A DNA stretch of 22,610 nucleotides from Eudoraea sp. (lineage in GTDB: Bacteria > Bacteroidota > Bacteroidia > Flavobacteriales > Flavobacteriaceae): contig JABDPH010000151.1 in the NCBI GenBank assembly GCA_013042925.1, positions 1 to 22,610 of the forward strand, given 5' to 3'. The notes under the pieces are model-generated. The model was given only the letters and a program-made list of their open reading frames with translations, ran no database searches and was not told where the DNA came from. Of the stretch, positions 6,088 to 22,610 are shown one piece after another. The first letter of the stretch is position 1. Each line of letters begins with the position of its first letter. Both the position numbers and the translations under genes were made by a program.

Positions 6088-6699
6088 ATGGATATAGAAG
6101 ATTGCAGTTCTCATACTAAACTATTTGGCCTGGTACTCTCAGGAGGTAAGAGCACAAGGATGGGGCAGGATAAAGGAGCAATACAATATCATGATCTTCC
6201 ACAGAGAGAGCATTTGTATAATTTGCTTTCACAGGTATGTACAAGAACATTTTTGAGCATAAGGAAAGATCAGACCGATGAAATTTCAACGGATATAGAT
6301 ACGATAATTGACCTAGATAAATACAAAGGACCTTTTAATGGCTTACTTAGTGCACATTCTATCTATCCAGAAGTTGCCTGGCTTGTAATAGCTTGCGATC
6401 TTCCGTTGATAGATCTTAATGCAATAAATCAATTAATTAATTTAAGAGATACATCAAAAATTGCTACCGCATTTGCCACGAGAGAAAGCGGACTGCCAGA
6501 ACCTCTGGCGGCAATATGGGAACCGGGAGGATTGACCAGATCTATTGATTATTTGGAGCATGCTACTAGTAGTTGTCCGAGGAAATATTTAATTAATTCT
6601 GATATAAAATTGGTTTTCCCGAGGGAGGATATTGTTTTAATGAATGCAAATTCAGAGGAAGACTATAGGGAAGTAATGTCCAAATTAGAAGCCACTTGA
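6088..6699 (+). CDS. mobA: MobA-type molybdenum cofactor guanylyltransferase
   Basis: The 203-residue cytosolic enzyme shows the nucleotide-binding loop LSGGKSTRMGQDKG at 17-30, with GQDKG following RM as in MobA rather than the KQLL of MocA. YKGPFNGLLSA (79-89) and IACDLPLI (101-108, Asp104 as the metal ligand) complete the fold. MobA joins GMP to Mo-molybdopterin, making the MGD cofactor of DMSO-reductase-family enzymes. CODH and other xanthine-oxidase-family enzymes normally use the cytosine form, so this gene suggests that another class of Mo enzyme exists in the cell. The stop overlaps the TTG start of the next gene in TTGA, so the two are translationally coupled. Specificity for GTP is inferred from motif resemblance only. 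Confidence 0.85.
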   Translation: MDIEDCSSHTKLFGLVLSGGKSTRMGQDKGAIQYHDLPQREHLYNLLSQVCTRTFLSIRKDQTDEISTDIDTIIDLDKYKGPFNGLLSAHSIYPEVAWLVIACDLPLIDLNAINQLINLRDTSKIATAFATRESGLPEPLAAIWEPGGLTRSIDYLEHATSSCPRKYLINSDIKLVFPREDIVLMNANSEEDYREVMSKLEAT

Positions 6700-7831: not shown

Positions 7832-7879
7832 AAATAAAGCAATCAGATTTATGAATGGTTTAAAGCTAATTTGTATCAT

Positions 7880-9079
7880 ATGATTTCATTTGAGGAAGCC
7901 TACTCAATAGTTCTCAATCAATCTAATGATTATGGTACAGAATCTGTTCGCATAATTAATGCCATAGGAAGGGTTTTAGCAGAAGATGTTTATGCAGACA
8001 GAGATTTTCCTCCTTATAAAAGAGCAATGAAAAATGGTATTGCCCTAAACTTTGATGCTATTGAGAATGGACGCAGGTCCTTTGAAATTAAAGGAATCTT
8101 AGCTGCCGGAAAACCTACATTCCCTTTTCTTGAAACTGGAGATTGTATTGAAATAATGTCTGGTGCCGTAGTTCCCTTCGAAGCCGATACGGTAATTAGA
8201 TATGAAGATCTGAGTATAGAAAAAGATATAGCTACAGTCCATAATCTGCCGACTAAGGGCCAAAATATAAACCTCCGTGGAAGTGATAAACTCAAAGGCG
8301 AAAATATTTTAAAAAAACACAAGCTACTCTCAGCCGCTGAAATGGGAATCTTATCCAGCATTGGCCAAAATAGGGTATTGGTTAAAAAGTTGCCTCGGGT
8401 AGCTGTCATTGCTACAGGAAACGAGTTGGTAAAAATAAATGATCAACCATTGCAGCATCAGATTAGAAGATCAAACGAATATTCGCTTCATGGTGCCTTG
8501 GAAAGAATGTGCATTACTCCTATGCTTTTGCACGTGGAGGATGATAAGGACTTGATGCGCCAAAAGTTGAGTTATGCAATAGAAGCTATGGATGTGTTGC
8601 TTTTAAGTGGTGGTATTTCAGCTGGAAAATTTGATTTTATTCCTGAAGTCTTGGGGGATTTAGGCGTAGATAAATTGTTTGGTCAGGTAGCTCAAGAACC
8701 AGGCAAACCATTTTGGTTCGGCACTCATCAGAATGCCAATACGGTAGTTTTTTCTTTTCCTGGAAATCCAGTTTCCACCTTTGCAAATTTTCATATTTAT
8801 TTCAGGGATTGGTTGCACAAATCGTTAGGATTACCACTCAATAAAAAAGATGTGCTTTTAAATGATTCTTTTGAGGTTAGTGGGGAATTAACTCAAATTA
8901 TCGGGGTAAACATAAATTGGGATAACGGAATTGTTTTTGCATCAAAGTCTATCATTAATAACCCTGGCGACTTGATTTCCTTGTCAAAAATAGATGGTTT
9001 TATTCTCCTCTCTCCTGTCAATAAAAACTATCAGAAAGGGGAGTCAGTACCATTTATACCAACGAGACAAATAATTTAA
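7880..9079 (+). CDS. moeA: MoeA paralogue with altered active-site residues
   Basis: I start at the ATG at 7880 (MISFEEA), typical of MoeA, rather than the TTG nine bases upstream; this gives 399 residues, the normal family length. Conserved blocks are present: IRYEDL, NLRGSD, QIRRSN, SGGISAGKFD, EPGKPFWFG and FPGNPVST. MoeA inserts molybdate into adenylated molybdopterin. Several core residues differ from the second copy at 9602-10816. MDG is replaced by KNG, so the residue equivalent to E. coli Asp59 is Asn52. MTGA becomes MSGA (Ser94, equivalent to Thr100), and TGDEL becomes TGNEL (Asn181). The frame is intact, so this looks like a diverged function or partner rather than decay. It follows moeB by 89 bases and could share its transcript. 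Confidence 0.88.
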   Translation: MISFEEAYSIVLNQSNDYGTESVRIINAIGRVLAEDVYADRDFPPYKRAMKNGIALNFDAIENGRRSFEIKGILAAGKPTFPFLETGDCIEIMSGAVVPFEADTVIRYEDLSIEKDIATVHNLPTKGQNINLRGSDKLKGENILKKHKLLSAAEMGILSSIGQNRVLVKKLPRVAVIATGNELVKINDQPLQHQIRRSNEYSLHGALERMCITPMLLHVEDDKDLMRQKLSYAIEAMDVLLLSGGISAGKFDFIPEVLGDLGVDKLFGQVAQEPGKPFWFGTHQNANTVVFSFPGNPVSTFANFHIYFRDWLHKSLGLPLNKKDVLLNDSFEVSGELTQIIGVNINWDNGIVFASKSIINNPGDLISLSKIDGFILLSPVNKNYQKGESVPFIPTRQII

Positions 9080-9155
9080 ATAAAAATCAAGATCAAGATA
9101 AAAAAGGACGCTTGGTCAATATACAGGCGATGACTTTAAGAGAAGAAAATATACC

Positions 9156-9596
9156 TTATTGTTTTTTCCATCTTAAATAGCGAAAGAAATATTCAAAGTT
9201 ACCATTATACCAAATTGCAAAAACAAAACTTGTATATAAGACCCATTGCGGCATTATTTCAATATAAAAGTAGGCATTCAATATTAAAAGCATTAACGCT
9301 GTCACCGAAATAACAGTGGAAATAATTGTTTTCCGACCTCGATTATTAAGTAGAATCATTAAAACAATAATGCCCCCCAAAATTGGTTTTGCATGTAATA
9401 GAAAAGGAGCTAATTGTGAATAATTTATATCAAAGAACATAAGGATCGCTCCTGTATACGCTACAACACAAAAAGGACACTTTGGCAGCAGTATCAACAA
9501 TAATGTGGATAGAAATGAAATATATCCTTTAGACCCGCTTCCAATTTCAGTTGGCCTATGGATTTTTTTACAACAGGATGATTTCGAAGTTTCCAT
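9156..9596 (-). CDS. Four-helix membrane protein with cysteine motifs, in the moaA-moeA operon
   Basis: The 146-residue product has about four hydrophobic segments (roughly residues 25-55, 66-84, 89-112 and 115-131). The cytosolic-looking N-terminus carries adjacent cysteines SSCCKK (Cys8, Cys9), and the first helix contains KCPFC (Cys40, Cys43). Paired cysteines in a first helix plus N-terminal cysteines recall small metal-transport membrane proteins of the MerC/MerT type, but I cannot assign it to a named family. The start lies only five bases after the moeA stop on the same strand, so it is almost certainly the third gene of the moaA-moeA operon. A role in metal or sulfur supply for Mo enzymes is inference from this position alone. 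Coding status is well supported by length, spacing and membrane topology. Confidence 0.75.
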   Translation of the reverse strand: METSKSSCCKKIHRPTEIGSGSKGYISFLSTLLLILLPKCPFCVVAYTGAILMFFDINYSQLAPFLLHAKPILGGIIVLMILLNNRGRKTIISTVISVTALMLLILNAYFYIEIMPQWVLYTSFVFAIWYNGNFEYFFRYLRWKKQ

Positions 9597-9601
9597 CTTT
9601 T

Positions 9602-10816
9602 TTAAAGATAAGATCTATAAGGTACAAAAGGATATACTTCACCCTTCATAAATATTGTTTTATTTTGAGGCAATATCAAAAAACCATCTGCTTTTACTAA
9701 ATTGGCAAAATCCCCTGATCCATTCCCTTTTACCGGGTTTGCAATCAAGTATCCATCGGTTTTACTTTCTAATTTTGCCTCTAAAAAATAAATTAAGTTA
9801 GGTTTAAAGTGGACTTCTTCATTCAAGGCCACATAAAACAATGTTTCCTCTATGCCTAAGGATTTAATTAACCAAAACCTAAGATAGATATATACGCAAA
9901 CAAATGAAGATACCGGGTTTCCCGGAAGTGCAAAAACCCGTTTATTATTTTTACTTGTCCCAAACCAAAAAGGTTTGCCTGGCCGTTGCTGTATTTTATG
10001 AAAATGTTTTACCACACCAAGCGATGTCAATACATCAGGTAAATAATCGAACTTCCCTTTAGATACACCTCCTGTAATTATGAGCAAATCAAATTCCTGA
10101 AGTAATTGGGCAAGAATAGTCTGCATTTTTTCCTTGTCATCTGGTAAATGCCTTAATTCTGCTGGAATTCCCCATTCTATTAAAGTGTTCTGAATACCAT
10201 AAACATTAGATCTTCGTATCTGATGAGTAAGAGGTGTTTCGTGTACATCTACCAGTTCATCGCCAGTAGAAATTATAACGGCTTTAGGCATTTTCTTAAC
10301 CGCTATAGTAAATTTTCCGGTAGCGGCAGCAACATTTATTTCGGCACTAGAAATAAGATTCCCCGCTTTAGTGATTACAGAGTCCTTGACAATATCCGAT
10401 CCTTTAAAATGAATGTTTTGGCGGTATTCAATTTCGGCAATATTAATATGGGCGTTTCCATCAGCTATGGTAAGGTCTTCATATCTAATTACCGTATCCG
10501 TATTATTAGGTAAAATTGCGCCAGTCATTACCTCTATACAAGAGGTTTTATCGTCGAGAGTTTGCTGTGGTGACCCGGCTGGAGCTACCCCTTTAATAGG
10601 AAACTCACGTTGTCCATTTCGAAATGTATCATAATCAATGGCAATGCCATCCATTGTTATTCGATCATAAGGCGGCAAATCACGATCTGCTGTTAAATCC
10701 TCTGCAAGGACATAACCTCCACATTCCTTTATAGGAACTTGAATAGTCACAAAATTATTTTTATTTAGTTCTATTATGCTTAATGCCTCCTCGTATGTTA
10801 TAAATGTCTTCTCCAC
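9602..10816 (-). CDS. moeA: MoeA, molybdopterin molybdenumtransferase (canonical copy)
   Basis: The 404-residue protein carries the full MoeA residue set: DLPPYDRITMDGIAI with Asp56 (E. coli Asp59 equivalent), VMTGAILP with Thr98, STGDEL, TGGVSKGKFDY, RPGKPFWFG and LPGNPVSS. It should catalyse molybdate insertion into MPT-AMP in the cytosol. It is the middle gene of a - strand operon, five bases downstream of moaA and five bases upstream of the cysteine membrane protein. It converges on the other moeA paralogue, whose stop lies about 520 bases away. The two share many blocks but differ clearly along their length, so they are old paralogues rather than a recent inverted duplication. Having all key residues, this copy is the better candidate for the main transferase. 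Confidence 0.93.
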   Translation of the reverse strand: MEKTFITYEEALSIIELNKNNFVTIQVPIKECGGYVLAEDLTADRDLPPYDRITMDGIAIDYDTFRNGQREFPIKGVAPAGSPQQTLDDKTSCIEVMTGAILPNNTDTVIRYEDLTIADGNAHINIAEIEYRQNIHFKGSDIVKDSVITKAGNLISSAEINVAAATGKFTIAVKKMPKAVIISTGDELVDVHETPLTHQIRRSNVYGIQNTLIEWGIPAELRHLPDDKEKMQTILAQLLQEFDLLIITGGVSKGKFDYLPDVLTSLGVVKHFHKIQQRPGKPFWFGTSKNNKRVFALPGNPVSSFVCVYIYLRFWLIKSLGIEETLFYVALNEEVHFKPNLIYFLEAKLESKTDGYLIANPVKGNGSGDFANLVKADGFLILPQNKTIFMKGEVYPFVPYRSYL

Positions 10817-10821
10817 AAAAT

Positions 10822-11811
10822 TCAGCCTCCTATTGAACTCATACTTACCTCTCTACCCAGGGTATTTTTCCCGGATTTTTCTGCTTCAAAGCCGTTCATG
10901 GGTTTTAATTTAATCAATTCCACAAACTTGGTTGTCAGTTCTTCATCTGAAATACCCCGGCGCATAAAGTCCCTTATACTAAATACGCCACCATCATATA
11001 GACAGGTTTTAATTTCGCCTTTCGCCGTAATACGTAATCTGTTGCATGTATTGCAGAAAGTGCGCGAAAAGGCAGGAATAATCCCAATATCGCCCTTAAA
11101 CTCATTTATCTGGTAATTGGTGGCAGTTTCACCATGCGATTTAGGTCTTGCGGACAAGCTGGGATATTCATTTTTAATAATTCGGTAGATATCGTTCGCC
11201 TTAAATATTTGAGCATTTTTTTTATAACCACCATTAAAGGGCATCTCTTCGATAAAGCGAATATTCACCGGATGGCTTTTAGCAAATTCTGCAAGAGGGA
11301 GTATGTCCTGTGTATTTACACCAAACATCACCACAGCATTGATTTTAAGATTGAATCCCTCATCTAATAGATTATTTAAGGCTCTAATTACTTTCGTAAA
11401 ATCATTTCTACGTGTAATTTTTTTAAAGCGTACTTCATCGAGGGAGTCTATACTTAAATTAATGTTTTTTATTCCGAGTTCTTTTAGTTTTGGGATATGC
11501 TTTTCTAACAATGTACCATTGGAAGTAATATGAATTGAGTCATACATTTGCAGTTCATTAGTACTATCTAGCAACTTTACAAAGTCTTTCCTCAAAAAAG
11601 GTTCACCACCAGTAAATCGAACTTTTTTGAACCCTAGTTTGCCAAGAACAGACAGGAGCCGGGTTATTTCTTCATAAGTTAGTAAATGTGCCTTAGGTTC
11701 ATATGTAATGCCCTCCATAGGCATACAATAAAAGCATCTCAGGTTGCAGCGATCTGTTACAGCAATTCTTACATAGTCTATTGTTCTGTCAAAACTATCT
11801 TTAAGCTGCAT
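10822..11811 (-). CDS. moaA: MoaA, GTP 3',8-cyclase
   Basis: The 329-residue radical-SAM enzyme has the CxxxCxxC cluster motif in DRCNLRCFYC (Cys22, Cys26, Cys29). VRFTGGEP (64-71) is the SAM-binding region. The second, C-terminal 4Fe-4S site is in FCNTCNRLR (Cys253, Cys256) and KTCLYD (Cys270). The protein ends in a conserved Gly-Gly (328-329), which in MoaA reaches into the active site and is essential. It performs the first step of Moco synthesis with MoaC, converting GTP to the 3',8-cyclo intermediate. No moaC gene is in the window. It heads the moaA-moeA-membrane protein operon and diverges from xdhC across a 201-base AT-rich gap. Confidence 0.96.
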   Translation of the reverse strand: MQLKDSFDRTIDYVRIAVTDRCNLRCFYCMPMEGITYEPKAHLLTYEEITRLLSVLGKLGFKKVRFTGGEPFLRKDFVKLLDSTNELQMYDSIHITSNGTLLEKHIPKLKELGIKNINLSIDSLDEVRFKKITRRNDFTKVIRALNNLLDEGFNLKINAVVMFGVNTQDILPLAEFAKSHPVNIRFIEEMPFNGGYKKNAQIFKANDIYRIIKNEYPSLSARPKSHGETATNYQINEFKGDIGIIPAFSRTFCNTCNRLRITAKGEIKTCLYDGGVFSIRDFMRRGISDEELTTKFVELIKLKPMNGFEAEKSGKNTLGREVSMSSIGG

Positions 11812-12012: not shown

Positions 12013-13122
12013 ATGAAGGAAATTAAATCCATTTTATCTCTTTATAATAAATTTAAGTCTTCAAACGAAAAAGCAGCTATTGCTCAAGTAGTTAGGGTAG
12101 AAGAATCATCTTACCGAAGAGAAGGAGCAAGGATGCTTGTTTTTGAATCTGGAGTTTTTGAGGGAGGTATAAGTGGAGGCTGCCTGGAGGGTGATGCCTT
12201 AAAACGATCACAGATGGCAATTTTTAAAGAGAAGCCGTCCATAGTAACTTATGACACTTCAAAGGATGATGAAAACCAAATAGGGGTAGGCCTAGGTTGC
12301 AATGGGGTGATTGATGTATTAATTTCACCCATAACAAATACTTCATCTACCATACCCTTACTGGAAAAATGTGTTTCTTCCAGACAGTCTCATGTTTTGA
12401 TTACAATAACGGCTTGTCCGGAAGATCCTGAATTGTTGGGAACTACTTACTATTTTGACACAAAAGAAAACACTATAGAAGGCGGTAAATTAGATCTTGA
12501 ACTTAAAGAATACCTGCTTAAGGATATTAAGTCAGTGGCCAATACTAAAAAATCCAACATTTACAACTATCAATTATCGGAAAAATCTGTAAGTGTATTT
12601 GTTGAATTGATTCCGCCGCAGTTTCATCTTGTTATCTACGGTGATAATTATGACGTATATCCCATGCTGGAATTAGCCAAAGTAATGGATTGGGAAGTCA
12701 GTTTGGTAGGTAATATACAGAAGTTAAAAAAAGAGAAACTAGCCACTGTTAAACATATTATTAGCAAAGGGGATAAAGAAGAACCATTTATAGATGACCG
12801 TACTGCCATTATCTTAATGGCTCATGATTTTAAAACAGATATGTCGAATCTCAAATTGGCATTGGAAAGTGAAGCTGCTTATATTGCATCACTCGGACCT
12901 AAAAAACGTTTTATTAAAATGGAAAATGAGTTCAAGGAGCAAGGCCAACCACTTTCCAAGACTTCTTTGGACAGAATATATGCTCCTTGCGGTTTGGAAT
13001 TAGGAGCAAATACCCCTGAGGAAATCGCAACAAGTATTTTTGCAGAAATATTGGCGGTATTTGCCGGAAAAAAAGGAGGGATGTTACGTGATAAGGCAGG
13101 TCCAATACATCAAAGGAATTAA
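12013..13122 (+). CDS. xdhC: XdhC/CoxI family Moco chaperone
   Basis: The 369-residue cytosolic protein has the N-terminal XdhC/CoxI domain with SSYRREGARML (32-42) and GGISGGCLEGD, where Cys57 is the conserved GGC(V/L)E cysteine. A C-terminal Rossmann-like domain begins near HLVIYGDNYDVYPM. The usual glycine-rich GAGxDA loop is changed to GDNYDV, so nucleotide binding may differ. The C-terminus has the GGMLRDKAGPIHQR end seen in XdhC proteins. XdhC binds Moco, protects the sulfurated form and hands it to xanthine-oxidase-type enzymes. Next to it, on the opposite strand with only four bases between stops, is a cysteine desulfurase, the enzyme class that supplies the Mo=S sulfur with XdhC in Rhodobacter. 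It may serve CODH, or may be left from the lost dehydrogenase at 5336-5629. Confidence 0.85.
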   Translation: MKEIKSILSLYNKFKSSNEKAAIAQVVRVEESSYRREGARMLVFESGVFEGGISGGCLEGDALKRSQMAIFKEKPSIVTYDTSKDDENQIGVGLGCNGVIDVLISPITNTSSTIPLLEKCVSSRQSHVLITITACPEDPELLGTTYYFDTKENTIEGGKLDLELKEYLLKDIKSVANTKKSNIYNYQLSEKSVSVFVELIPPQFHLVIYGDNYDVYPMLELAKVMDWEVSLVGNIQKLKKEKLATVKHIISKGDKEEPFIDDRTAIILMAHDFKTDMSNLKLALESEAAYIASLGPKKRFIKMENEFKEQGQPLSKTSLDRIYAPCGLELGANTPEEIATSIFAEILAVFAGKKGGMLRDKAGPIHQRN

Positions 13123-13126
13123 TAAA

Positions 13127-14296
13127 TTAACGCCTATCCCAAAGTAAATTACTCGCACGCTGCTTTGCCACTTCTTTGGTAATGATGAGGATTGCCTGTT
13201 GTATATCTTCTTCGGTTGTATATTTGCCTAAACTGATGCGCAAGGTTGAAAGGGCTAGGTTTCTGCCAATCCCCATGGCAGTTAGTACATGAGAGGGATT
13301 TATCGAGGCAGAGTTACAGGCAGAGCCATTGGAAACGGCTAAATTTTGGCTGAGGGCAGCCAGCAATTGCTGGCCATCAACATACTCATAAGATATATTC
13401 AGAGTGTTACATAGTCGATCTGATTTTTTGCCATTTATGGTAGCCTCTTCTATTAAAGAAAGTCCTTCTTCCAATTGATTTCTGAGGTTGGACAATCTAT
13501 CCCTTTCAGCCTCCAAGTTATTAATTCCAAGCTTAATGGCTTTAGCCAATCCAACTATGGCAGGAGTATTGTAAGTTCCTCCACGCAATTTTCGCTGTTG
13601 TCCTCCACCTTGAATAAAACTTTGCAGGCTTGCCTGGCTTTCCAATTTCGCAAAAGTAAACCCAATTCCCTTTGGGCCATAAATTTTATGGGCTGAAAAA
13701 CAAGCAAAATCCACCCAGGAAAAGAAATTGTCTAATGGGATTTTTCCAATGGCCTGTGTCGCATCAGAGAAAAGAAGCGTGTTTTTTTGTTTACAGATCT
13801 TGGCAATAGCTTCCATGGGTTGAATTACACCCGTCTCATTATTGGCATACATGACCGATACGATAAGGGTATTATCTGAAATTGCAAGTGCAAGTGCATT
13901 AAGATCAATAAGCCCATTTCCATCAACATCTAAATAAGTAACATCAGCACCCTCTTCCTGAAGATATTCACACACATCCAAAGTAGCTTTATGTTCCGTT
14001 TTGACAGTCAAAATTTGATTCCCTTTATGTTTTAATTTGCGGTATACACCTTTTAATACTGCATTAATACTCTCTGTAGACCCGGAAGTATAAATAATTT
14101 CCTTTTCATCTATTTTCAGAAGAGAAGAAATATGCAGAGTGGCGTCCTCAATTGCTTCTTTGGCCACCCAACCATATGGGTGATGTTCACTGGATGCATT
14201 GCCAAAATCTAAAGTAAAATATGGAAGCATACATTCTAACACCTTCTTATCGCATGGTGTGGTTGCATTATAATCTAAATATAATGGGTAATTCAT
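13127..14296 (-). CDS. Cysteine desulfurase, IscS/NifS class
   Basis: The 389-residue PLP enzyme opens with YLDYNATTP. Key residues are His102 (TEHKAT), NNETG (152-156), Asp178 and Gln181 (SDATQAIGK), the PLP lysine Lys204 in SAHKIYGPKG, and the persulfide cysteine Cys327 in SNGSACNSAS. The mobile-loop length is typical of class I enzymes. It releases alanine from cysteine and passes a persulfide to acceptors such as IscU, a rhodanese or Moco. No iscU or other Fe-S assembly gene is nearby. Its place between xdhC and coxM suggests a role in sulfurating Moco or feeding the MoeB rhodanese, in line with the NifS4-XdhC pair of Rhodobacter capsulatus. A housekeeping role cannot be ruled out. It diverges from coxM. 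Confidence 0.92.
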   Translation of the reverse strand: MNYPLYLDYNATTPCDKKVLECMLPYFTLDFGNASSEHHPYGWVAKEAIEDATLHISSLLKIDEKEIIYTSGSTESINAVLKGVYRKLKHKGNQILTVKTEHKATLDVCEYLQEEGADVTYLDVDGNGLIDLNALALAISDNTLIVSVMYANNETGVIQPMEAIAKICKQKNTLLFSDATQAIGKIPLDNFFSWVDFACFSAHKIYGPKGIGFTFAKLESQASLQSFIQGGGQQRKLRGGTYNTPAIVGLAKAIKLGINNLEAERDRLSNLRNQLEEGLSLIEEATINGKKSDRLCNTLNISYEYVDGQQLLAALSQNLAVSNGSACNSASINPSHVLTAMGIGRNLALSTLRISLGKYTTEEDIQQAILIITKEVAKQRASNLLWDRR

Positions 14297-14497: not shown

Positions 14498-15367
14498 ATG
14501 ATTCCAGCTAATTTCAACTATCACAAGGCGTCTTCTTTGCAAGAAGCATTTGCTTTGTCTGCGGAATTTGGTGAAGAAGCAAAATACATGTCGGGCGGGC
14601 ATAGTCTGTTGCCGATGATGAAACTTCGCTTTGCCACACCCGAGCACATTATCGATATCAGTAAAATCGAAGGACTATCTTATATAAAGGAAGATGGAGA
14701 TTTTTTGAAAATTGGGGCCTTAACAACCCAGACTGAATTAGAACATAATGCAATTTTAAAATCAAAATATCCAATTTTTGGTGATGCGGTATGGTTAACT
14801 GCCGACCCTTCCGTAAGAAATTTTGGAACTATTGGTGGTAACATTGCGCACGGAGATGCTGCAAATGATCAACCGGCTTTGATGCTTGCACTTCGTGCAA
14901 CTATTGTTGCAGAAGGCGCTGATGGTAAAAAAACCATACCGATAGATAAATTTTTCCATGGTTTTTATATGACTGCTTTGGAACCAGGTGATATTTTGAC
15001 TGAAATTCAAATCCCGAAATCGAAAAAGAATAGTGGCGGTGCATATCATAAAGTAGAACGTAAGGTTGGTGATTATGCTACGGCTGGAGTTGCTGTTCAT
15101 ATCGAACTAGATGATGATGGCGTTTGTCAAGAAATTGGCATTGGTCTCACCAATGTCAGCGCGGTGCCTATGCGTTTGGAACGAGGCGAAGAAGTATTAA
15201 GAGGAAAAAAGGTTACTGATGAATTGATAAAACAAGTAGGTGTTATTGCTGGTGAAGATGCTGAACCTGAATCTGATTTAAGAGGTTCTGAAGCCTATAA
15301 AAGATCAATATTGAATACAATTACAAAACAAATGTTGAATAAGGCTTTAGAAAGAGCAAGACAATAA
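14498..15367 (+). CDS. coxM: CoxM, FAD-binding medium subunit of aerobic CO dehydrogenase
   Basis: The 289-residue protein has the two FAD pyrophosphate-binding motifs of CODH medium subunits at the usual positions: SGGHS at 32-36 and TIGGN at 111-115. The latter continues into [13 protein letters not shown], which is highly typical of Cox[16 protein letters not shown] marks the C-terminal CODH flavoprotein domain. CoxM takes electrons from the CoxS iron-sulfur clusters and passes them on towards quinone. It is the first gene of the cox operon, in the M-S-L order usual for form I enzymes, and coxS starts eight bases after its stop. No Shine-Dalgarno precedes the ATG. The length equals that of characterised CoxM proteins. 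Confidence 0.95.
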
Positions 15368-15375
15368 AAATCACT

Positions 15376-15867
15376 ATGGGAAAACACAATGTAACAATGA
15401 CAATTAATGGCGAAAGCGTTTCTGCGGAAGTTGATTCTCGCCTGCTCTTAGTTCATTTTATTAGAGAAAATTTAGATATGACAGGCACCCATATTGGATG
15501 TGATACATCTAGTTGTGGTGCTTGTACCATTTTAATTGATGGTAAATCAGTAAAATCTTGTACGTATTTAGCCGTTCGTGCCGATGGTGCTAATATAACT
15601 ACAATAGAAGGTATTGCTGCTGATGGCACCAATCATCCTTTACAAAAAGCATTTCACGATCAACATGGTCTGCACTGTGGTTTCTGTACTCCAGGTATGA
15701 TAATGAGGTCTATAGATATGCTGGAGACAAACCCAAATCCCACGGAGAAAGAAATTCGTTGGGGTATTTCAGGAAATTTATGTCGCTGTACAGGATATAA
15801 CAATATTGTTAAATCCGTTCAACAGGCCGCAGAAGAAATGTCCAAAGAAAAAGAAGCTTCAGTCTAA
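15376..15867 (+). CDS. coxS: CoxS, 2Fe-2S small subunit of aerobic CO dehydrogenase
   Basis: The 163-residue subunit binds two 2Fe-2S clusters. The plant-ferredoxin-type site uses Cys42, Cys47, Cys50 and Cys62 ([10 protein letters not shown] and KSCTYL). The second, four-helix site uses Cys101 and Cys104 (HCGFCTPG) and Cys136 and Cys138 (NLCRCTGY). Cluster spacing and length match CoxS closely. The residue before the first cysteine of the second site is His100; the family usually has Gln there, where it contacts the molybdenum-cofactor pterin, so this is a small oddity. It lies between coxM and coxL with gaps of 8 and 18 bases and is surely co-transcribed. It carries electrons from the Mo-Cu site to the FAD. 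Confidence 0.96.
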
Positions 15868-15885
15868 CCTCTAAACAAAAAAATT

Positions 15886-18252
15886 ATGTTCTCATGTAAA
15901 ACAACACCAGAGGTAGGCGGAATGGGTCACTCTGTAAAACGAAAAGAAGATGCTCGATTTTTGCACGGCAAAGGTAATTATACCGATGATGTCAAATTAC
16001 CGGGTATGTTACATATGGTTATTGTACGCAGTCCGTACGCCTATGCCAAAATATTAAGTATCAATAAAGAAAAAGCATTGGCTATTGAAGGCGTTTTAGC
16101 AGTCATTACTGGTGAAGATTTGGCACAATACAATCTACATTGGATGCCCACTTTACTTTCGGATTCGCAAATGGTTTTACCAACGGATACCGTGATGCAC
16201 CAGTCGCAAGAAGTTTGCGCTGTTATTGCAACGGACAGATATATCGCTGTAGATGGAGCGGAAGCTGTAGATGTGCAATATGAGCCAATGAAAGCATTAA
16301 TCGATCCATTTAAAGCTCGCGATGAAGATGCTCCTTTACTACGACCAGACAAAGAAGGTCAAAAAGATAATCATATTTACCATTGGGAACGAGGCGATAG
16401 GGAAAAAACGGATGCGGCAATTGCTGCTGCTGACGTGGTGGTAAAAGAACGTATTTACCTTCCTAGAATTCATGTTGCTTCAATTGAAACATGTGGCGTG
16501 GTTGCGTCTTATGACAAGGATACAGAAAAAATGTTGATTTATTTGACATCTCAAGCGCCTCATGCTATTCGAACGATTCTAGCTTTAGTTGCAGGTCACG
16601 TTGGCTTATCCGAAGAAAAAATTCGAATTATCGCTCCGGATATAGGAGGTGGTTTTGGAGGAAAAGTTCCTGTTTATCCAGGATATGTAATTGCAATTGC
16701 CGCTTCTTTCTTAATTGGTAAACCAGTAAAATGGATTGAAGACCGTTCTGAGAATTTGGTGAACGGATTTGCGCGTGATTATCATATGGATTGTGAATTG
16801 GCGGCAACTAAAGACGGAAAAATTCAAGCCTTTAAAGTTTCGACATTAGCAGATCATGGGTATACCGATTCTTCAGCGAACCCTTCTAAATATCCTACGG
16901 GAATGTTCTCTATCTGTACAGGTTCGTATGATTACGAACATGCTTTTGCAGAATTAGATGCAGTATATACGAATAAAGCTCCAGGTGGGGTCGCGTATCG
17001 TTGTTCTTTTCGTGTTACGGAAGCTGTGCATGCTATCGAACGTATGGTAGATAAATTGGCTGCGGAAATAGGGAAGGATCCTGCGCAATTACGTTTCGAA
17101 AACTTTATAAAGAAAGAGGATTTTCCATATGCTTCGCCTTTAGGATGGAGCTATGATAGTGGTGATTATAAAGCTACGCTGGAGAAAGCCATGGAAATGG
17201 TGGGCTATGCCGATTATAAAAAGGAGCAAGCTGAAAAGCGAGCCCAAGGAAAATTGATGGGCATTGGAATTTGCACTTTTACCGAAGTAGTAGGTGCAGG
17301 GCCATCTAAGGATTTTGACATCTTAGGTATTGCCATGTTCGATAGTGCCGAGATTCGGGTACATCCAACAGGAAAGGTGTTAGCTCGTTTTGGAACCAAG
17401 TCACAAGGTCAAGGTCATGAAACTACCTATGCTCAGATTCTAGCAGAAGAATTGGGAATTCCCTATTCTGATATTGAAATCGATGAAGGGGATACCGATA
17501 CCGCACCCTATGGTTTAGGTACTTATGCTAGTAGAAGTACACCTACAGCCGGAGCAGCAGCAGCAATCGCAGCACGTAAATTACGTGACAAAGGAAAGAA
17601 AATCGCAGCCCATTTATTGGAGGTGAGTGAAGAGGATATTGAATGGGAAGTAGGAAAGTATTTTGTAAAAGGAGCTCCCGAAAAATCTAAAACGATACAG
17701 GACGTTGCCTTTGCCGCATACACGAATTTCCCACAAGGAATGGAGCCCGGTTTTGAAGAAACTCATTACTATGACCCACCAAATTTAACCTTCCCTAACG
17801 GTGCCTATATCTGTGTTGTTGAGGTAGATGAAGAAACGGGTGCTATTGATGTAAAACGTTTTGTGGCCATCGATGATTGTGGAAACATTATCAACCCTAT
17901 GATTGTAGAAGGTCAAGTGCATGGCGGATTAACACAAGGAATTGCGCCGGCCATGTACGAGGGTATTGTTTATGATGATGAGGGAAATGTACTGAACGGA
18001 ACACTAATGGATTATCTAGTGCCTACGGCGGTAGAATCGCCGCATTGGGAAACAGGTCATACGATTACACCATCACCACACCACCCATTAGGTGCGAAGG
18101 GTGTTGCTGAATCTCCTACCGTTGGAGCACCTCCAGCAATTGCAAATGCGATCATAGATGCCTTATATCCTTTAGGAATTAAGCATTTGGATATTCCTAT
18201 TACGCCAGACAAAGTTTGGGACGCGATTCAAGTAGCAAAAGCGAAAGTGTAG
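15886..18252 (+). CDS. coxL: CoxL, form I molybdenum-copper large subunit of aerobic CO dehydrogenase
   Basis: The 788-residue protein contains AYRCSFR at 370-376, the signature that separates true form I CO dehydrogenases from form II enzymes (AYRGAGR). Cys373 would hold the copper of the Cu-S-Mo cluster. Other active-site pieces are GGGFGGK (254-260), followed by VPVYPGYV as in form I proteins, and GVAESPTVGAPPA near the C-terminus with Glu742, the likely catalytic base equivalent to Glu763 of the Oligotropha enzyme. The enzyme oxidises CO to CO2 in the cytosol and needs the cytosine dinucleotide form of Moco. It follows coxS by 18 bases. The downstream gap of 225 bases with hairpins separates it from coxG. 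Function is assigned with high confidence from the active-site loop; activity itself is not shown. Confidence 0.96.
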   Translation: MFSCKTTPEVGGMGHSVKRKEDARFLHGKGNYTDDVKLPGMLHMVIVRSPYAYAKILSINKEKALAIEGVLAVITGEDLAQYNLHWMPTLLSDSQMVLPTDTVMHQSQEVCAVIATDRYIAVDGAEAVDVQYEPMKALIDPFKARDEDAPLLRPDKEGQKDNHIYHWERGDREKTDAAIAAADVVVKERIYLPRIHVASIETCGVVASYDKDTEKMLIYLTSQAPHAIRTILALVAGHVGLSEEKIRIIAPDIGGGFGGKVPVYPGYVIAIAASFLIGKPVKWIEDRSENLVNGFARDYHMDCELAATKDGKIQAFKVSTLADHGYTDSSANPSKYPTGMFSICTGSYDYEHAFAELDAVYTNKAPGGVAYRCSFRVTEAVHAIERMVDKLAAEIGKDPAQLRFENFIKKEDFPYASPLGWSYDSGDYKATLEKAMEMVGYADYKKEQAEKRAQGKLMGIGICTFTEVVGAGPSKDFDILGIAMFDSAEIRVHPTGKVLARFGTKSQGQGHETTYAQILAEELGIPYSDIEIDEGDTDTAPYGLGTYASRSTPTAGAAAAIAARKLRDKGKKIAAHLLEVSEEDIEWEVGKYFVKGAPEKSKTIQDVAFAAYTNFPQGMEPGFEETHYYDPPNLTFPNGAYICVVEVDEETGAIDVKRFVAIDDCGNIINPMIVEGQVHGGLTQGIAPAMYEGIVYDDEGNVLNGTLMDYLVPTAVESPHWETGHTITPSPHHPLGAKGVAESPTVGAPPAIANAIIDALYPLGIKHLDIPITPDKVWDAIQVAKAKV

Positions 18253-18477
18253 AGTAATAAAGTAATTTGGTTAGAAGTATCAAATACTAAGTACTAAGGT
18301 AAAATAAAGTGGCTCCTCCCTCTAGACGTTGGGTGTCCAACTTTGTTGGATCGAAGGATTTAAAGCAAGCCATACGGTTAGATAGTTTTTAGCTCAGAAA
18401 GCTCTTCACATGAATAAAACTTTTAGTAAAAACAAATAGATTTCCACCGTTGTGGGAATCAAATAAAATTCCATTTT
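18253..18477. other. Structured intergenic region between coxL and coxG
   Basis: The 225 bases hold no gene I can support. They contain a short AGTAT/ATACT inverted repeat with tandem TACTAAG units (about 18277-18299) and then two overlapping stems. TCCAAC (18336-18341) pairs perfectly with GTTGGA (18345-18350). Alternatively GTTGG (18328-18332) pairs with CCAAC (18337-18341). Only one of the two can form at a time. No T-run follows either. A dispersed intergenic repeat or an RNA-processing site between the catalytic subunits and the accessory genes are both possible. Confidence 0.45.
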
Positions 18478-18954
18478 ATGAAAACACAATTAGATAAATC
18501 ATTTGAAGTTCCACAAAGCACAGATTTAGTTTGGGAACATTTAATCGACCCAGAAAAAATAATGGATTGTGTACCTGGAGTTTCAGTAGATGAGAAAGTC
18601 GGTGATAACCATTATAAAGGAAAAGTTGGAATGAAATTCGGCCCTATGGGTGTCAAATACGATGCTGATATTTTTTATAAGGAAATAGATAAGGCAAACC
18701 GTAAAATAATATTGACTGGTGATGGGGTAGATTCCAAAGGTAATGGAAATGCAGAAATGATGATGACCATTGACCTTATTGAACGTGCTGAAGGTGGGGT
18801 AAAGTTAGATGCCATTATGGATGTTACCATTAATGGAAAAATAGCACAATTTGGTTCTCGATTAATTACCACGGTTTCTAATCAATTATTCAAACAATTC
18901 GTTTCGAATTTTTCAAAAAAACTAGCCGCAGCAGAAGCAGCGACATCGGCTTAG
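18478..18954 (+). CDS. coxG: CoxG, SRPBCC-fold CO dehydrogenase accessory protein
   Basis: The 158-residue protein shows the CoxG pattern of the START/SRPBCC superfamily. VPQSTDLVWEHLIDPEKIMDC is followed by VPGV near the N-terminus, then GVKYDADI, and a final helix with GSRLITTVSNQLFKQF before NFSKKL. CoxG proteins have a deep hydrophobic pocket. In other bacteria they are linked to membrane attachment of CODH and to quinone delivery, so this copy may connect CoxMSL to the respiratory chain. The sequence ends in an Ala-rich KKLAAAEAATSA tail with no hydrophobic anchor, unlike longer CoxG proteins. It lies downstream of coxL after a structured gap and is followed by a hairpin before coxD. Confidence 0.9.
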   Translation: MKTQLDKSFEVPQSTDLVWEHLIDPEKIMDCVPGVSVDEKVGDNHYKGKVGMKFGPMGVKYDADIFYKEIDKANRKIILTGDGVDSKGNGNAEMMMTIDLIERAEGGVKLDAIMDVTINGKIAQFGSRLITTVSNQLFKQFVSNFSKKLAAAEAATSA

Positions 18955-18977
18955 ATATTCCCGGAATCTATAATCAG

Positions 18978-19010
18978 AAGCTATGCTCCCCAAGCATGGC
19001 TTTTTAAAAT
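18978..19010 (+). terminator. Hairpin between coxG and coxD, terminator or attenuator
   Basis: AAGCTATGC (18978-18986) pairs with GCATGGCTT (18994-19002), nine pairs including one T-G, around a 7-base loop, and is followed by a T-run. It ends about ten bases before the coxD start, so it probably lowers rather than blocks expression of the accessory genes relative to coxMSLG. Confidence 0.65.
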
Positions 19011-19018
19011 TTTAGCTA

Positions 19019-19891
19019 TTGAATAAAGAAATCGATGCGCTGATAAGAGACTTTTATGAGCACGACTACATTCTCAACGAAGCATTGGCGACTTCCATTT
19101 TCCTTTTAAAGAATTTGGAAAAACCGTTATTATTGGAGGGTAACCCCGGAGTTGGTAAAACTATGCTAGCCAAAACCTTAGCGGAACATTTAGGAACGAA
19201 TTTAATTCGTTTGCAATGTTACGAAGGTTTGGATGTAAGTACTACCATTTACGAATGGAATTACCAAAAGCAGCTGCTCCATATCAAACTTTTTGAACAA
19301 GACGAGGATAAGCTGGCGCTCCAAAATCAGATTTTTGGAATGGATTATGTCCTTCAACGCCCTTTGTTACAATCAATAAGCGCTGATAAACCTGTGGTGC
19401 TCTTGATTGATGAAATTGATAGGGCTGATGAAGAATTTGAAGCATATCTATTAGAACTACTTTCTGATTTTCAAATCAGTATTCCTGAATTGGGTACGAT
19501 AAAAGCAAAATCAAAACCTTTGGTGATTTTGACTTCCAATCGAACTAGAGAGCTCAGTGATGCTTTACGACGACGATGTTTGTATCATTGGGTTGACTTT
19601 CCATCAAAGATGGGTGAGATTAATATCATTGCAAAAAAACTTCCGAATATTGATGAAGCATTGGCTACGCAGGTGGTTACTTTTATTCACAATTTGAGAA
19701 AGTCAAGTTTACACAAACCACCGGGTATTGCAGAATCTCTAGATTGGGCAAAAACCTTATTGTTGATGAATCAAAAGAATATCACCGATGAGATTGTAAA
19801 AACTACCATAGGTAGTATTCTGAAACATAAAGATGATATAGAGTTTGTGAGGAACAAGTCAGTTCAAGAATTTTTATATCCTATTGCCTAG
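19019..19891 (+). CDS. coxD: CoxD, MoxR-type AAA+ ATPase for CODH maturation
   Basis: The 290-residue AAA+ protein has Walker A GNPGVGKT (41-48), Walker B VVLLIDEIDRAD with the DE pair at 131-132, sensor 1 in LVILTSNRTRE, and the arginine-rich LRRRC box. In Oligotropha, CoxD is a chaperone-like ATPase needed for sulfuration of the Mo site of CODH, and it pairs with the VWA protein CoxE. The start is TTG at 19019; no ATG lies before Walker A in this frame, so an ATG start would remove the ATP site. It sits directly behind the coxG-coxD hairpin and 93 bases ahead of coxE. The role is inferred from family and order. Confidence 0.92.
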   Translation: MNKEIDALIRDFYEHDYILNEALATSIFLLKNLEKPLLLEGNPGVGKTMLAKTLAEHLGTNLIRLQCYEGLDVSTTIYEWNYQKQLLHIKLFEQDEDKLALQNQIFGMDYVLQRPLLQSISADKPVVLLIDEIDRADEEFEAYLLELLSDFQISIPELGTIKAKSKPLVILTSNRTRELSDALRRRCLYHWVDFPSKMGEINIIAKKLPNIDEALATQVVTFIHNLRKSSLHKPPGIAESLDWAKTLLLMNQKNITDEIVKTTIGSILKHKDDIEFVRNKSVQEFLYPIA

Positions 19892-19984
19892 AATATTATC
19901 CTAAGCGGAATGAAACATGGGACGGCAACGATATAAAAAACACCAATTTCAAGTTCATTTTTAAAAGCAAAATTTCTATAATCC

Positions 19985-21121
19985 GTGCAAGCTTTAGAAA
20001 ATACTTTCAAAGAACGCCTAATCGACTTTACCATGTATTGTCGGGAGCGGCAGTTTGTTTTGGGCCCACAAGAAACAAGTGATGCTTTTGAAGTTGCAAA
20101 GCGTGGTTGGGTATTAGATCGTAAACTATTTCAGTATAGCTTAAAGGCTATTTATTGTAAACGCAAAGAGCATTTTGACCGTTTTGATGAAATGTTCGAT
20201 CGTTTTTGGAGTCGTTATTACGAAGAGAAATTAGAACAACGCAAAAAGCAAGTCAAGCTACTTAAAAAGGAAAAAGACACTGCCACAGTTATATTTTTGG
20301 GAACGGAATTTAAAGTCCCAAAAAAGGAAGTTAAAGAACAAGAGGCTAAAGAAACTGTTGGGGCAAATGAAAGTATACGCTTAAGACGGACTGATTTTTC
20401 TAAGGTAAATGTTAATGATAAGGAAAAACTGGAAGAACTGGCCGAAGAGCTATTTCATCAAATGAGTATGCGTTTTAAGCGTAGACTTGAGAATGCGAAC
20501 AAGGGCAGCATCGATATTCGAAATACGATTCGTCACGGAGTGTCTAAAGGGGGAATAATGTTAGACTTGTCCCATAAAAGAAAGCGCAAAGAAAAGCGCA
20601 AAGTGGTTTTTATTCTCGATGTGAGTGGTTCAATGGATACATATAGCTATTATCTTTTGCGATACGTAATGGTGTTAAAGAATTATTTTAAGAGTCTGGA
20701 ATTTTTTACCTTTAGTACAACCCTGACTCATGTTACGCCAATGCTTCGACAAAACAATGAACAGGAAGTTTTAAAACAGATTGGCAAGAATGTACATTCT
20801 TGGTCGAGTGGTACCAAGATAGGGGAGTCGCTCACGGAATTTCTCTCTGAGTATGGAAGTAAATTTTTGAGCCAAAAACATATTGTAGTGATACTCAGTG
20901 ACGGACTCGAAACCGGAAGTGTAACAGTGCTTAGGGAGGCCGTAAGAACCATACGCAGAAAATGCAAGACCTTGGTTTGGCTGAATCCGTTGAAAGGAAT
21001 GGATGGCTATCAGCCCATTCAAAAAGGAATGGTGAATGTGATGCCGCATTTAGATGCATTTGAATCGGCGCACAACTTGGATAGTTTATTAAAATTAGAA
21101 AAATTATTGATGGATGTTTAA
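19985..21121 (+). CDS. coxE: CoxE, VWA-domain CODH maturation protein
   Basis: The 378-residue protein has an N-terminal helical CoxE-type region, a very charged linker (about residues 78-150), and a C-terminal VWA domain. MIDAS residues Asp212, Ser214 and Ser216 lie in ILDVSGSMD, with further support from SSGTKIGESL and VVILSDGLETG. CoxE works with the AAA+ partner CoxD and is required in Oligotropha for placing copper in the active site. The basic stretch KRKRKEKRK before the VWA core may contact nucleic acid or an acidic partner. It starts with GTG at 19985 and its end overlaps the next gene by eight bases, so CoxE and the CoxF-like protein are translationally coupled. Confidence 0.92.
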   Translation: MQALENTFKERLIDFTMYCRERQFVLGPQETSDAFEVAKRGWVLDRKLFQYSLKAIYCKRKEHFDRFDEMFDRFWSRYYEEKLEQRKKQVKLLKKEKDTATVIFLGTEFKVPKKEVKEQEAKETVGANESIRLRRTDFSKVNVNDKEKLEELAEELFHQMSMRFKRRLENANKGSIDIRNTIRHGVSKGGIMLDLSHKRKRKEKRKVVFILDVSGSMDTYSYYLLRYVMVLKNYFKSLEFFTFSTTLTHVTPMLRQNNEQEVLKQIGKNVHSWSSGTKIGESLTEFLSEYGSKFLSQKHIVVILSDGLETGSVTVLREAVRTIRRKCKTLVWLNPLKGMDGYQPIQKGMVNVMPHLDAFESAHNLDSLLKLEKLLMDV

Positions 21122-22124
21122 CGAACTAGCTTTACAAATAGAAAAGCATTTGGCCAAAGGCACAAACTTTGCCATTGCTCAAGTAGTGGACCGTATTGCT
21201 CCGAGCTCTGGTAAAGTAGGGGATAAAGCGCTGATTTTGGAAACGGGTGAATTGATTGGCTGGATAGGAGGTGGCTGCGTTCGTGGTATCGTAATAAAAG
21301 AAGCCATTGATGTCATCAGAACGAAACGCTATCGACGTGTACGTATTTCACCTGAAGGTGGTTCTAGGGAAACCGCTACCTATAAAGAGTACGTAATGTC
21401 TTGTCAAAGTAAAGGAACATTAGAAGTTATGATAGAACCTGTAATACCACAGCCGGAATTAATTGTAATTGGCAAATCGAATATCGCAAGAAAGTTGGTG
21501 CAAATGGCTGCGGCAGCAGATTTTAGGGTATCGGTGATGGCTACTGAAGCAGATGTGCAGATGTTTCCAGATGCCTATAGTATTTCTGATATAGTAGATT
21601 TCAGTGCTTTTAAAGGGCTAACAAATACTTATATTATAGTTACTACACAAGGCGAAAATGACGAACGTTCCATCAAAGAGGCATTAGAAACCTCCGTTGG
21701 TTATGTAGGCTTTGTAGCTAGCGCTAAAAAGGCAGACGATATAAAAATATATTTAAAGAAAGAAGGTATTTCGGAAGCTCGTGTAGCGGTATTGAGAAGT
21801 CCCGTTGGTTTGGATATAAATGCGAAGTTGCCAAGTGAGGTGGCTATAAGTATCTTAGCGGAAGTTATTGATCATTTTCGGAATGAAAATAAATCTGAGG
21901 CCTCGTGCTGTGGTTCCAAAAAATTGGAACAAACATCGGGTGCAGAAGAACAAGATAAGTTTTCAGAAGAATATTATATTAATCCTGTTTGTCAAGTTCC
22001 TGTTTCAAAAAAAAATCCTAAACACATTGTGGAATATCAGGGAGAAAAGGTATATTTCTGCTGTGATGGATGCAAGGTAAGTTTTGATAAAAACCCATCA
22101 CAATACATAGGAAAGACCGTATAG
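21114..22124 (+). CDS. coxF: CoxF-like XdhC-family protein with C-terminal YHS domain
   Basis: The 336-residue protein has an N-terminal XdhC/CoxI domain (about 10-105; SSGKVGDKALIL and WIGGGCVRG with Cys55). A Rossmann-like middle domain begins at PELIVIGKSNIA and ends in LPSEVAISILAEVI. A spacer containing SCCGSKK follows, then a separate C-terminal YHS-type domain (about 287-336) with NPVCQVPV (Cys293) and YFCCDGCK (Cys316, Cys317, Cys320). YHS domains bind soft metals such as copper. In Oligotropha, CoxF is needed for copper insertion into CODH, so the fusion could give the chaperone its own Cu(I) site. It overlaps coxE by eight bases and is followed by the mocA-like gene after 39 bases. 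The XdhC part is clear; copper binding is inferred. Confidence 0.88.
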   Translation: MFNELALQIEKHLAKGTNFAIAQVVDRIAPSSGKVGDKALILETGELIGWIGGGCVRGIVIKEAIDVIRTKRYRRVRISPEGGSRETATYKEYVMSCQSKGTLEVMIEPVIPQPELIVIGKSNIARKLVQMAAAADFRVSVMATEADVQMFPDAYSISDIVDFSAFKGLTNTYIIVTTQGENDERSIKEALETSVGYVGFVASAKKADDIKIYLKKEGISEARVAVLRSPVGLDINAKLPSEVAISILAEVIDHFRNENKSEASCCGSKKLEQTSGAEEQDKFSEEYYINPVCQVPVSKKNPKHIVEYQGEKVYFCCDGCKVSFDKNPSQYIGKTV

Positions 22125-22163
22125 AATCTTCCATTCTTAATTTCTTTAAGGTTTCCTTTATTG

Positions 22164-22610
22164 ATGACCCATTCAGAAACAAAAATAGCTATCCTGATAT
22201 TGAGCGCCGGGGCATCGAGCCGCATGGGATCCACTACCAAACAATTATTACCCTGGCGGGATACCACATTACTGGGCAACGCTATAAGGTCTGCAAAGCA
22301 GGCATCTTGTAATACGGTTGCCGTCGTGTTGGGTTCTCAGGCCAATACAATTCAAAAACAAGTCGAGAACGAAAAAGTTCAAATAGTTTTTAATAAAAAC
22401 TGGAAATCCGGTTTGGGGTCTTCTATATCCTGTGGTATTAGCGCTTTAGAAAAAAACAAAATGAAGTATGAAGCTGTGCTTATACTACTGGTTGATCAAC
22501 CTTTCATAGATACTGCCTATTTAAATTTGCTTATTACTAACTACCTTAACAGCAGTAATGGGATAATTGCCACAAACTATTTTGATAAGGCAGGGGTACC
22601 TGCTATTTTT
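22164..22610 (+). CDS. mocA: MocA-like molybdenum cofactor cytidylyltransferase, 3' end cut by the window
   Basis: The frame is open from the ATG at 22164 to the last base, 149 codons, of an expected 190-200. It carries the NTP-transferase loop LSAGASSRMG followed by TTKQLLPW, which is the MocA pattern (RMG-x-x-KQLL) rather than the MobA one (RMG-x-DKG). GLGSSISCGI and LLVDQPFID complete the fold. MocA adds CMP to Moco, giving the MCD cofactor needed by CODH. Its position as the last visible gene of the cox operon fits that task and contrasts with the MobA-type gene at 6088. CTP specificity is deduced from motif and context. The same family includes NTP transferases of unknown specificity. 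Confidence 0.88.
   Translation, partial: MTHSETKIAILILSAGASSRMGSTTKQLLPWRDTTLLGNAIRSAKQASCNTVAVVLGSQANTIQKQVENEKVQIVFNKNWKSGLGSSISCGISALEKNKMKYEAVLILLVDQPFIDTAYLNLLITNYLNSSNGIIATNYFDKAGVPAIF

Follow-up and report, generated by a model that had tools for sequence, protein, structure and literature searches.

A form I CO dehydrogenase operon in a Eudoraea-like flavobacterium whose CoxF carries a probable copper-binding arm

Introduction

How does copper reach the Mo-S-Cu site of aerobic carbon monoxide (CO) dehydrogenase? The route is unsettled, and the model that we found, in excerpts of PMC4240915, is built on one organism and a suspected motif. The question is posed here by a stretch of 22610 bases (G000:C113; the window, meaning the whole stretch) from a Eudoraea-like member of the Flavobacteriaceae, whose assembly comprises 2.9 Mb and is 76.5% complete. 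The window carries a form I CO dehydrogenase operon in which CoxF, an XdhC-family maturation protein, ends in a YHS domain. We give a probability of about 0.68 to the reading that this domain is a copper-binding arm of CoxF's own. An arm that is tied to form I enzymes, and that gives way to an HMA domain in one group, is a candidate copper donor open to direct test. It may also serve to mark copper-loaded form I enzymes as against form II in genomes, and may help in making active enzyme in other hosts. The uptake of CO by bacteria of this kind is relevant to the atmosphere and the ocean.

The operon and its enzyme

What enzyme does the operon encode? On the plus strand, coxM (14498..15367; 289 residues, the flavin adenine dinucleotide (FAD) subunit), coxS (15376..15867; 163 residues, the 2Fe-2S subunit) and coxL (15886..18252; 788 residues, the Mo-Cu catalytic subunit) are followed by coxG, coxD, coxE and coxF, so that the order M-S-L-G-D-E-F runs from 14498 to 22124 with all cox frames intact, as the initial annotation had it. 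CoxM has FAD_binding_5 and CO_deh_flav_C domains with GGHS and TIGGN, and CoxS has Fer2_2 and Fer2 with eight cysteines in two groups (42, 47, 50, 62, 101, 104, 136 and 138); these we take to be the FAD and 2Fe-2S ligand motifs, respectively, in agreement with the earlier claim that the cofactor ligands are intact. CoxD (19019..19891, plus strand; 290 residues, listed start TTG) is a MoxR-type AAA+ ATPase by its AAA/AAA_5 match, with Walker A GNPGVGKT and Walker B LLIDE. CoxE (19985..21121, plus strand; 378 residues) is a VWA domain protein (PF05762 VWA_CoxE, 176.9 bits; DVSGS).

The assignment of CoxL to form I has several supports. The AYRCSFR loop occupies residues 370-376 (DNA 16993-17013), and CoxL scores 1197 bits against TIGR02416, above the curated cut-off of 991, and is the only match to that model at E 0.001 in the host assembly. 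The best four solved structures for CoxL by sequence, 8uem, 1ffu, 1n5w and 1zxi, are all CO dehydrogenase large subunits. We placed CoxL in a tree of 118 rows (108 form I, 10 form II), built by a quick method with support from the Shimodaira-Hasegawa-like approximate likelihood ratio test only. Of the 41 form II rows 31 had been dropped beforehand, as had L268, flavobacterial loci that were nearly identical and 18 loci whose CoxF state was unknown. The form I rows, CoxL of the window among them, lie on one side of a branch with support 100. Loop, family cut-off, clade placement and the M-S-L order with coxD, coxE and coxF thus all speak for form I membership, and the window, to judge from its sequence, holds an ordinary, intact form I aerobic CO dehydrogenase operon. 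Because CoxL has form I membership, true CO oxidation, the function originally predicted, is the supported prediction for this enzyme. Might it oxidise some other substrate? The case for CO is made from sequence alone, which leaves room for the idea; loop, TIGR02416 score, clade and full maturation set together make it very improbable.

CoxF and its YHS domain

The initial annotation listed coxF, and the gene is indeed present, but what it had not noticed is that the product is CoxF plus a YHS domain. The gene (21114..22124, plus strand; 336 residues) adjoins coxE, and its XdhC_CoxI, XdhC_C and YHS domains are all above the Pfam gathering score. The YHS metal-binding domain covers residues 283-334 (21960..22115, plus strand), with N290, C293, C316 and C320; its PF04945 match at residues 289-334 has 45.4 bits, the gathering score being 30.3. 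No NCBIfam model scored above its cut-off for CoxF. An AlphaFold model predicts a confident body, a disordered linker at 259-280 (predicted local distance difference test (pLDDT) below 50) and a YHS domain with pLDDT 75-89 over 281-330; with this model as query, Foldseek returned only XdhC structures at E 0.001.

Five cysteines, C55, C97, C293, C316 and C320, are invariant in 46 of 46 aligned CoxF sequences, and the last three lie within the YHS domain, which Pfam finds in 45 of the 46. In a wider set of CoxF proteins with a YHS or HMA tail, 111 of 115 have C-x22-C-x3-C close to the C-terminus, a cruder pattern giving 108. The residue three positions before the first YHS cysteine is Asp in 61 of these 111, Asn in 49 and Cys in one, the Asn rows being the window, 47 loci that are of Bacteroidota or nested among Bacteroidota, and L162. 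The resulting spacing, D/N-x2-C-x22-C-x3-C, matches D178-C181-C204-C208 of the YHS domain of a Mycobacterium phlei adenylyl cyclase that, according to excerpts of PMC4626032, is activated, together with Mg, by Cu and by none of six other metal ions tested.

A further cysteine motif, CxSxG, is present in the window's CoxF as CQSKG at residue 97. It occurs in 111 of the 115 CoxF with a YHS or HMA tail, in 12 of 78 full-length YHS-less XdhC proteins at form I loci, these 12 being the YHS-less CoxF themselves, and in none of 24 full-length form II XdhC. Oligotropha CoxF (L158) shares the motif. We rejected CxSxG as the sole copper site; as a CoxF-specific feature, it may still act together with the YHS domain. 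The CC of the window's linker (residues 265-266) was rejected as a general site, a linker CC being found in only 9 of 115 CoxF.

In the open-access literature, with subscription papers outside the scope of the search, we found no mention of YHS joined to XdhC, CO dehydrogenase or coxL. As far as we searched, then, the CoxF with a tethered YHS domain is the new point. The architecture is visible in annotation, for example under the database name 'YHS domain-containing protein [Robertkochia marina]'.

Spread of the arm and its tie to form I

Is the arrangement peculiar to this flavobacterium? We examined 199 loci, 153 with a form I CoxL, 43 with form II only and three without a readable motif, holding 242 XdhC-family open reading frames. 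The locus tables take in 20 of 23 Chloroflexota, 30 of 36 Actinomycetota and all 10 Pseudomonadota form I genomes; 40 form II loci were also retrieved, many of them without XdhC. L268 and L055 are one place, counted twice in the XdhC tallies, and L159 and L329 are close kin. By local models, 113 of the 204 XdhC frames nearest a form I CoxL have a YHS domain and one has HMA, while the 35 nearest form II have neither; two of the three without a readable motif nearby have YHS. The remaining 90 of the form I-nearest frames include second paralogues, cut genes and the CoxF of Pseudomonadota. An internal control is offered by the 62 form I loci with at least two full-length XdhC proteins: exactly one of these carries YHS or HMA at 59 loci, and none does at three.

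A YHS-bearing CoxF accompanies the form I enzyme in Bacteroidota, Chloroflexota, Actinomycetota, a haloarchaeon and others. Named loci with YHS above the gathering score are those of Thermomicrobium, Natronorubrum and Paraburkholderia; named ones without it are Oligotropha OM5, Marivivens and Halococcus, the last with a form II XdhC. By sample, the arrangement is found at 20 of 20 Chloroflexota and 25 of 30 Actinomycetota loci; of the other five Actinomycetota loci, L270 is without the domain, another is cut, and three show no XdhC next to their form I gene. The genome searches give a similar picture. Among the matches listed, a CoxF match reaches YHS in 23 of 23 Chloroflexota genomes with form I and in one of 128 others (G1054, at a contig start), G1109 being left out of the count, as its match to position 314 crosses three stops. 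Among 395 Bacteroidota genomes, the eight that have a form I CoxL are also the eight in which CoxF finds a match below 1e-50; the next best XdhC is at 1e-20. In three of the eight the match covers YHS and five have HMA-type tails. In the other 74 Bacteroidota genomes with a match, none runs from XdhC beyond residue 287, and G433 matched YHS alone. Fisher values for such tallies are inflated by relatedness, and we rely on the tree instead. Each deep form I branch sampled in the CoxL tree has YHS. The domain is lacking in a single Actinomycetota row and in a 10-row clade made up of Oligotropha, Marivivens and eight rows from a sample centred on a gammaproteobacterial genome.

At the position of YHS, the CoxF of one Bacteroidota/Rhodothermota group has an HMA domain instead. 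Pfam HMA is above its gathering score in all four tails scanned (L051 and L120-L122, the latter three among the five Bacteroidota HMA-type tails), and four tails (L121-L124) have GMSCAHC. How often did this replacement occur? The CoxL tree needs three changes, two of them forced. Several origins are disfavoured by a tree of the CoxF body, which leaves out 11 rows whose body could not be cut. Because a branch in this tree (support 85, not starred) separates the six HMA rows from the rest, a single swap from YHS to HMA seems likelier. The HMA domain, of Atx1 type, is a classic Cu(I) carrier, and the loop cysteine of CoxL, absent from form II, holds copper.

One might think that YHS and HMA are instead structural or docking modules, with zinc or no metal, that bind CoxE or CoxL. 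We consider this improbable. The three YHS cysteines are invariant in 46 of 46 proteins, the replacement in one group comes from an unrelated metal-binding family, and the domains are missing from all 35 XdhC nearest form II enzymes, which are without the loop cysteine. To the credit of a docking role, some YHS/TRASH domains bind other metals or have been solved metal-free, as excerpts of PMC4626032 report.

Proposed copper loading

How might the arm act? According to excerpts of PMC4240915, the CO dehydrogenase made by Oligotropha mutants in coxE or coxF contains no Cu; CoxF is proposed there as the supplier of Cu, with MCPSHGTM as the suspected site. This site contains CxSxG. The invariant cysteines, the cyclase-like spacing, the HMA replacement and the Oligotropha genetics together point to copper, by sequence and by analogy, and we infer that the YHS domain of CoxF would bind Cu and pass it to CoxL, perhaps by a relay through C97.

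The likely course of events is as follows. The host would most likely use the enzyme to gain energy from trace CO, with CoxMSL oxidising CO and CoxG, in the role given to it by the literature, handing electrons to the quinone pool. Sulfuration of the Mo site would be driven by CoxD, again by its literature role, possibly helped by the second XdhC and the upstream cysteine desulfurase. After sulfuration CoxF would insert copper. The metal would be held by the YHS domain, through N290, C293, C316 and C320, on a flexible linker. From there it would pass to the Mo-S-Cu-Cys373 site of CoxL, perhaps by way of C97, the CxSxG cysteine specific to CoxF. HMA would be the arm in the one Bacteroidota/Rhodothermota group.

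Might YHS sense copper rather than deliver it? CoxF would then act on the apo-enzyme only if Cu is present, the metal itself coming from a general chaperone or from the CxSxG site alone. The biochemical precedent for a YHS domain is indeed a sensor, the M. phlei cyclase (PMC4626032, in the excerpts seen), and a YHS-less CoxF functions in Oligotropha (PMC4240915, likewise in excerpt). An HMA domain at the same position of CoxF fits delivery better, and we regard a sensor or gate as unlikely, if worth keeping in mind.

Several observations weigh against a copper-delivering YHS arm. The only genetically studied CoxF, that of Oligotropha (L158), has no YHS domain, and the domain is missing at eight of the nine sampled Pseudomonadota loci with XdhC (10 loci in all). 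At 12 YHS-less loci scanned there is no stand-alone YHS or HMA nearby, while the L162 control gave CoxF-YHS. Because YHS-less CoxF and loci exist with no stand-alone YHS or HMA nearby, the domain would be dispensable for copper insertion in some systems. The CoxF of Deinococcus is without the first Cys, its YHS score of 29.1 being just below the cut-off of 30.3. The window, like other Bacteroidota, has Asn instead of Asp as its first putative ligand, and CxSxG is missing in four of the 115 CoxF with YHS or HMA. A YHS domain can be metal-free, that of toluene-4-hydroxylase having been solved without metal (PMC4626032, in excerpt). Finally, among the matches listed for Actinomycetota genomes, a CoxF match reaches YHS in 32 of 36 with form I and in six of 210 others. 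Of these ten exceptions four trace to cut genes or to the rule by which matches were read. A contig end truncates CoxL in G846, CoxL is partial in G871 and G735, CoxF is cut in G739, G883 has YHS by local model (L274), and G872 is truly without YHS (L270); G911, G839, G825 and G943 complete the list.

With these points in hand, what can be said of form I systems at large? On balance we favour the view that most of those outside the Pseudomonadota load copper through a chaperone domain tethered to CoxF, YHS or in one group HMA; that the arm is ancestral and was lost in the Oligotropha clade; and that the textbook maturation model would rest on the exception.

Host distribution and origin of the operon

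Where did the operon come from? The initial annotation thought that form I in a host of this type might mean lateral acquisition or an under-described lineage. The second idea is only partly right: CoxL proteins 90-99% identical are present in named Maribacter, Robertkochia, Robiginitalea and Eudoraea genomes, among them Maribacter arcticus DSM 23546, Robiginitalea aurantiaca M39 and Eudoraea chungangensis KCTC 42048, and form I coxL of Bacteroidota has been published before, in the accessible parts of Cordero et al. 2019 (PMC6794299), a 2026 ocean survey (PMC13203968) and a 2026 marine survey (PMC13240472). CoxL of the window shares 99% identity with its counterpart in an uncultured Eudoraea, 97% with that of Maribacter arcticus and 95% with that of Eudoraea chungangensis. 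Among 60 genomes, the window's and 59 relatives, CoxL of at least 92% identity is found in five, namely the window's, two of nine other members of the genus and two family members outside the genus; the match in a sixth genome reaches only 43%. When the phylum was sampled evenly, CoxL scored above the cut-off in eight of 395 genomes, that of the window among them.

Absence from the genus may be overcounted, because the contig of one apparently negative genus mate, G003, ends within the cluster after 98.4% identity over 3588 bases. The final 246 bases of that contig (L361), 3589-3834, cannot be aligned to the window. The metagenome-assembled genome Eudoraea sp. Ww469 has three contigs with form I coxL (L032, L057 and L079) and is possibly a mixed assembly.

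Recent acquisition from Pseudomonadota, Actinomycetota or Chloroflexota was tested by the CoxL tree and by guanine-plus-cytosine (GC) content, and is unsupported. The 18 flavobacterial rows form one clade (support 100) whose neighbours are Saprospiraceae and other Bacteroidota, so that CoxL nests within Bacteroidota. Where a lower taxon is given for loci of at least 90% identity, it is Flavobacteriaceae or Flavobacteriales; the others read only Bacteroidia or Bacteroidetes. The operon's GC, 0.391 (coxL alone 0.424), is slightly over the 0.376 of a 47 kb genome sample, and the operon is patchy in the genus (two of nine other genomes); these are the points that such an acquisition has on its side, and one of the seeming absences is the G003 contig that stops inside the cluster. 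We hardly credit a cross-phylum origin.

Transfer inside the Flavobacteriaceae is another matter, and here the earlier suspicion of lateral movement has some merit. As the window's assembly has no RpoB match, the Eudoraea isolate with 99% CoxL identity stood in for it. Against this isolate Maribacter arcticus has 94.3% identity in RpoB and 97.5% in CoxL (97.1% against the window's CoxL), and E. chungangensis has 97.2% in RpoB and 94.8% in CoxL; over 136 pairs from 17 genomes the two identities correlate at 0.33. Because CoxL and RpoB identities disagree, exchange of the operon among Flavobacteriaceae is suggested. In a comparison with M. arcticus (L010), the upstream genes are 48-68% and the cox genes 85-97% identical, an abrupt change that may be the boundary of transferred DNA.

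Other genes of the window

CoxG (18478..18954, plus strand; 158 residues) is an SRPBCC/CoxG protein (PF06240 COXG). CoxG is cited as a menaquinone-binding membrane protein in the accessible part of PMC13240472. The C-terminus of the window's protein is without a hydrophobic anchor, its best tail hydropathy being 0.63 versus 2.11 in Oligotropha CoxG; a hydrophobic C-terminal stretch is present in Oligotropha and at several other loci. A short CoxG is also found in Marivivens and at part of the loci in the Chloroflexota sample, and we regard that of the window as a variant, with no claim of lost function.

Directly 5' of the cox genes, at 6088-14296, lies a molybdenum-cofactor (Moco) gene set, an addition to the initial account. 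It begins on the plus strand with a mobA-like nucleoside triphosphate (NTP) transferase (6088..6699; PF12804), a MoeB/ThiF-like adenylyltransferase with a rhodanese-like end (6696..7790; top NCBIfam matches are MoeB models, under cut-off) and a first copy of moeA (7871..9079; MoeA_N, MoCF_biosynth). Three genes on the minus strand follow: an orphan small membrane protein (9156..9596), a second moeA (9602..10816; MoeA_N, MoCF_biosynth, MoeA_C) and moaA (10822..11811; Radical_SAM, Mob_synth_C). The second XdhC/CoxI paralogue (12013..13122, plus strand) has XdhC_CoxI and XdhC_C only, without YHS, and is followed by an IscS/NifS-like cysteine desulfurase (13127..14296, minus strand; Aminotran_5, best NCBIfam match TIGR02006, under cut-off). 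The desulfurase adjoins the XdhC paralogue at many flavobacterial loci, and is a possible source of sulfur for the Mo site; excerpts of PMC4240915 call this source unknown.

The small membrane protein (146 residues) has no Pfam or NCBIfam family above cut-off. Its P38, K39, C40, C43 and Y47, a PKCxxC motif among them, are invariant in 39 of 39 sequences, and it has an N-terminal CC. It is a candidate metal transporter, and a putative copper importer for CO dehydrogenase. Copies stand at 38 cox loci, the window counted, and in seven of the 60 genomes, five of the seven with form I CoxL; one database name reads 'MerC mercury res...'. The L054 copy (8065-8538) ends in a stretch with CVRC, similar to the beginning of an HMA domain.

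Farther upstream, 484-5080 holds genes for a pirin, an amidase, a carboxypeptidase and a VWA protein, in that order. At the other end, the mocA-like NTP transferase (22161..22610, plus strand; PF12804) that the initial annotation counted within 14498-22124 is present; it starts outside that interval and is incomplete at the window end.

Comparison with known systems

How does the window compare with systems already known? The cox cluster of Oligotropha (Afipia) carboxidovorans OM5 (pHCG3, L158) likewise has coxM-S-L, coxD, coxE, coxF and coxG, AYRCSFR and a second XdhC; Cupriavidus necator H16 has served as host for the Oligotropha cox genes (PMC6011924). The window differs in having coxG before coxD, a CoxF with YHS, a short, anchorless CoxG, no MHYT genes and attached Moco genes; the absence of coxB, coxC, coxH and coxK from the window was correctly noted at the outset. 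No MHYT-type gene is listed in the annotated Thermomicrobium, Deinococcus, Natronorubrum and Paraburkholderia loci, whose gene tables are incomplete. The Thermomicrobium roseum locus (L159) shares with the window a form I CoxL, 66% identical, and a CoxF with YHS; unlike in the window, coxF there directly follows coxL.

The XdhC of xanthine dehydrogenase (relatives with solved structures 2we8 and 3on5) and CoxF have a common body of XdhC_CoxI and XdhC_C. Unlike CoxF, the XdhC paralogues at the loci studied are without YHS and, YHS-less CoxF aside, without CxSxG, a comparison made outside of 2we8 and 3on5. The Atx1-type HMA domain that replaces YHS in some Rhodothermota/Bacteroidota CoxF belongs to another Pfam family and is absent from the window. 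Finally, the YHS domain of the M. phlei adenylyl cyclase and that of CoxF have the D/N-x2-C-x22-C-x3-C spacing in common, but the former regulates a cyclase, whereas the latter sits on a protein of metal-cluster assembly.

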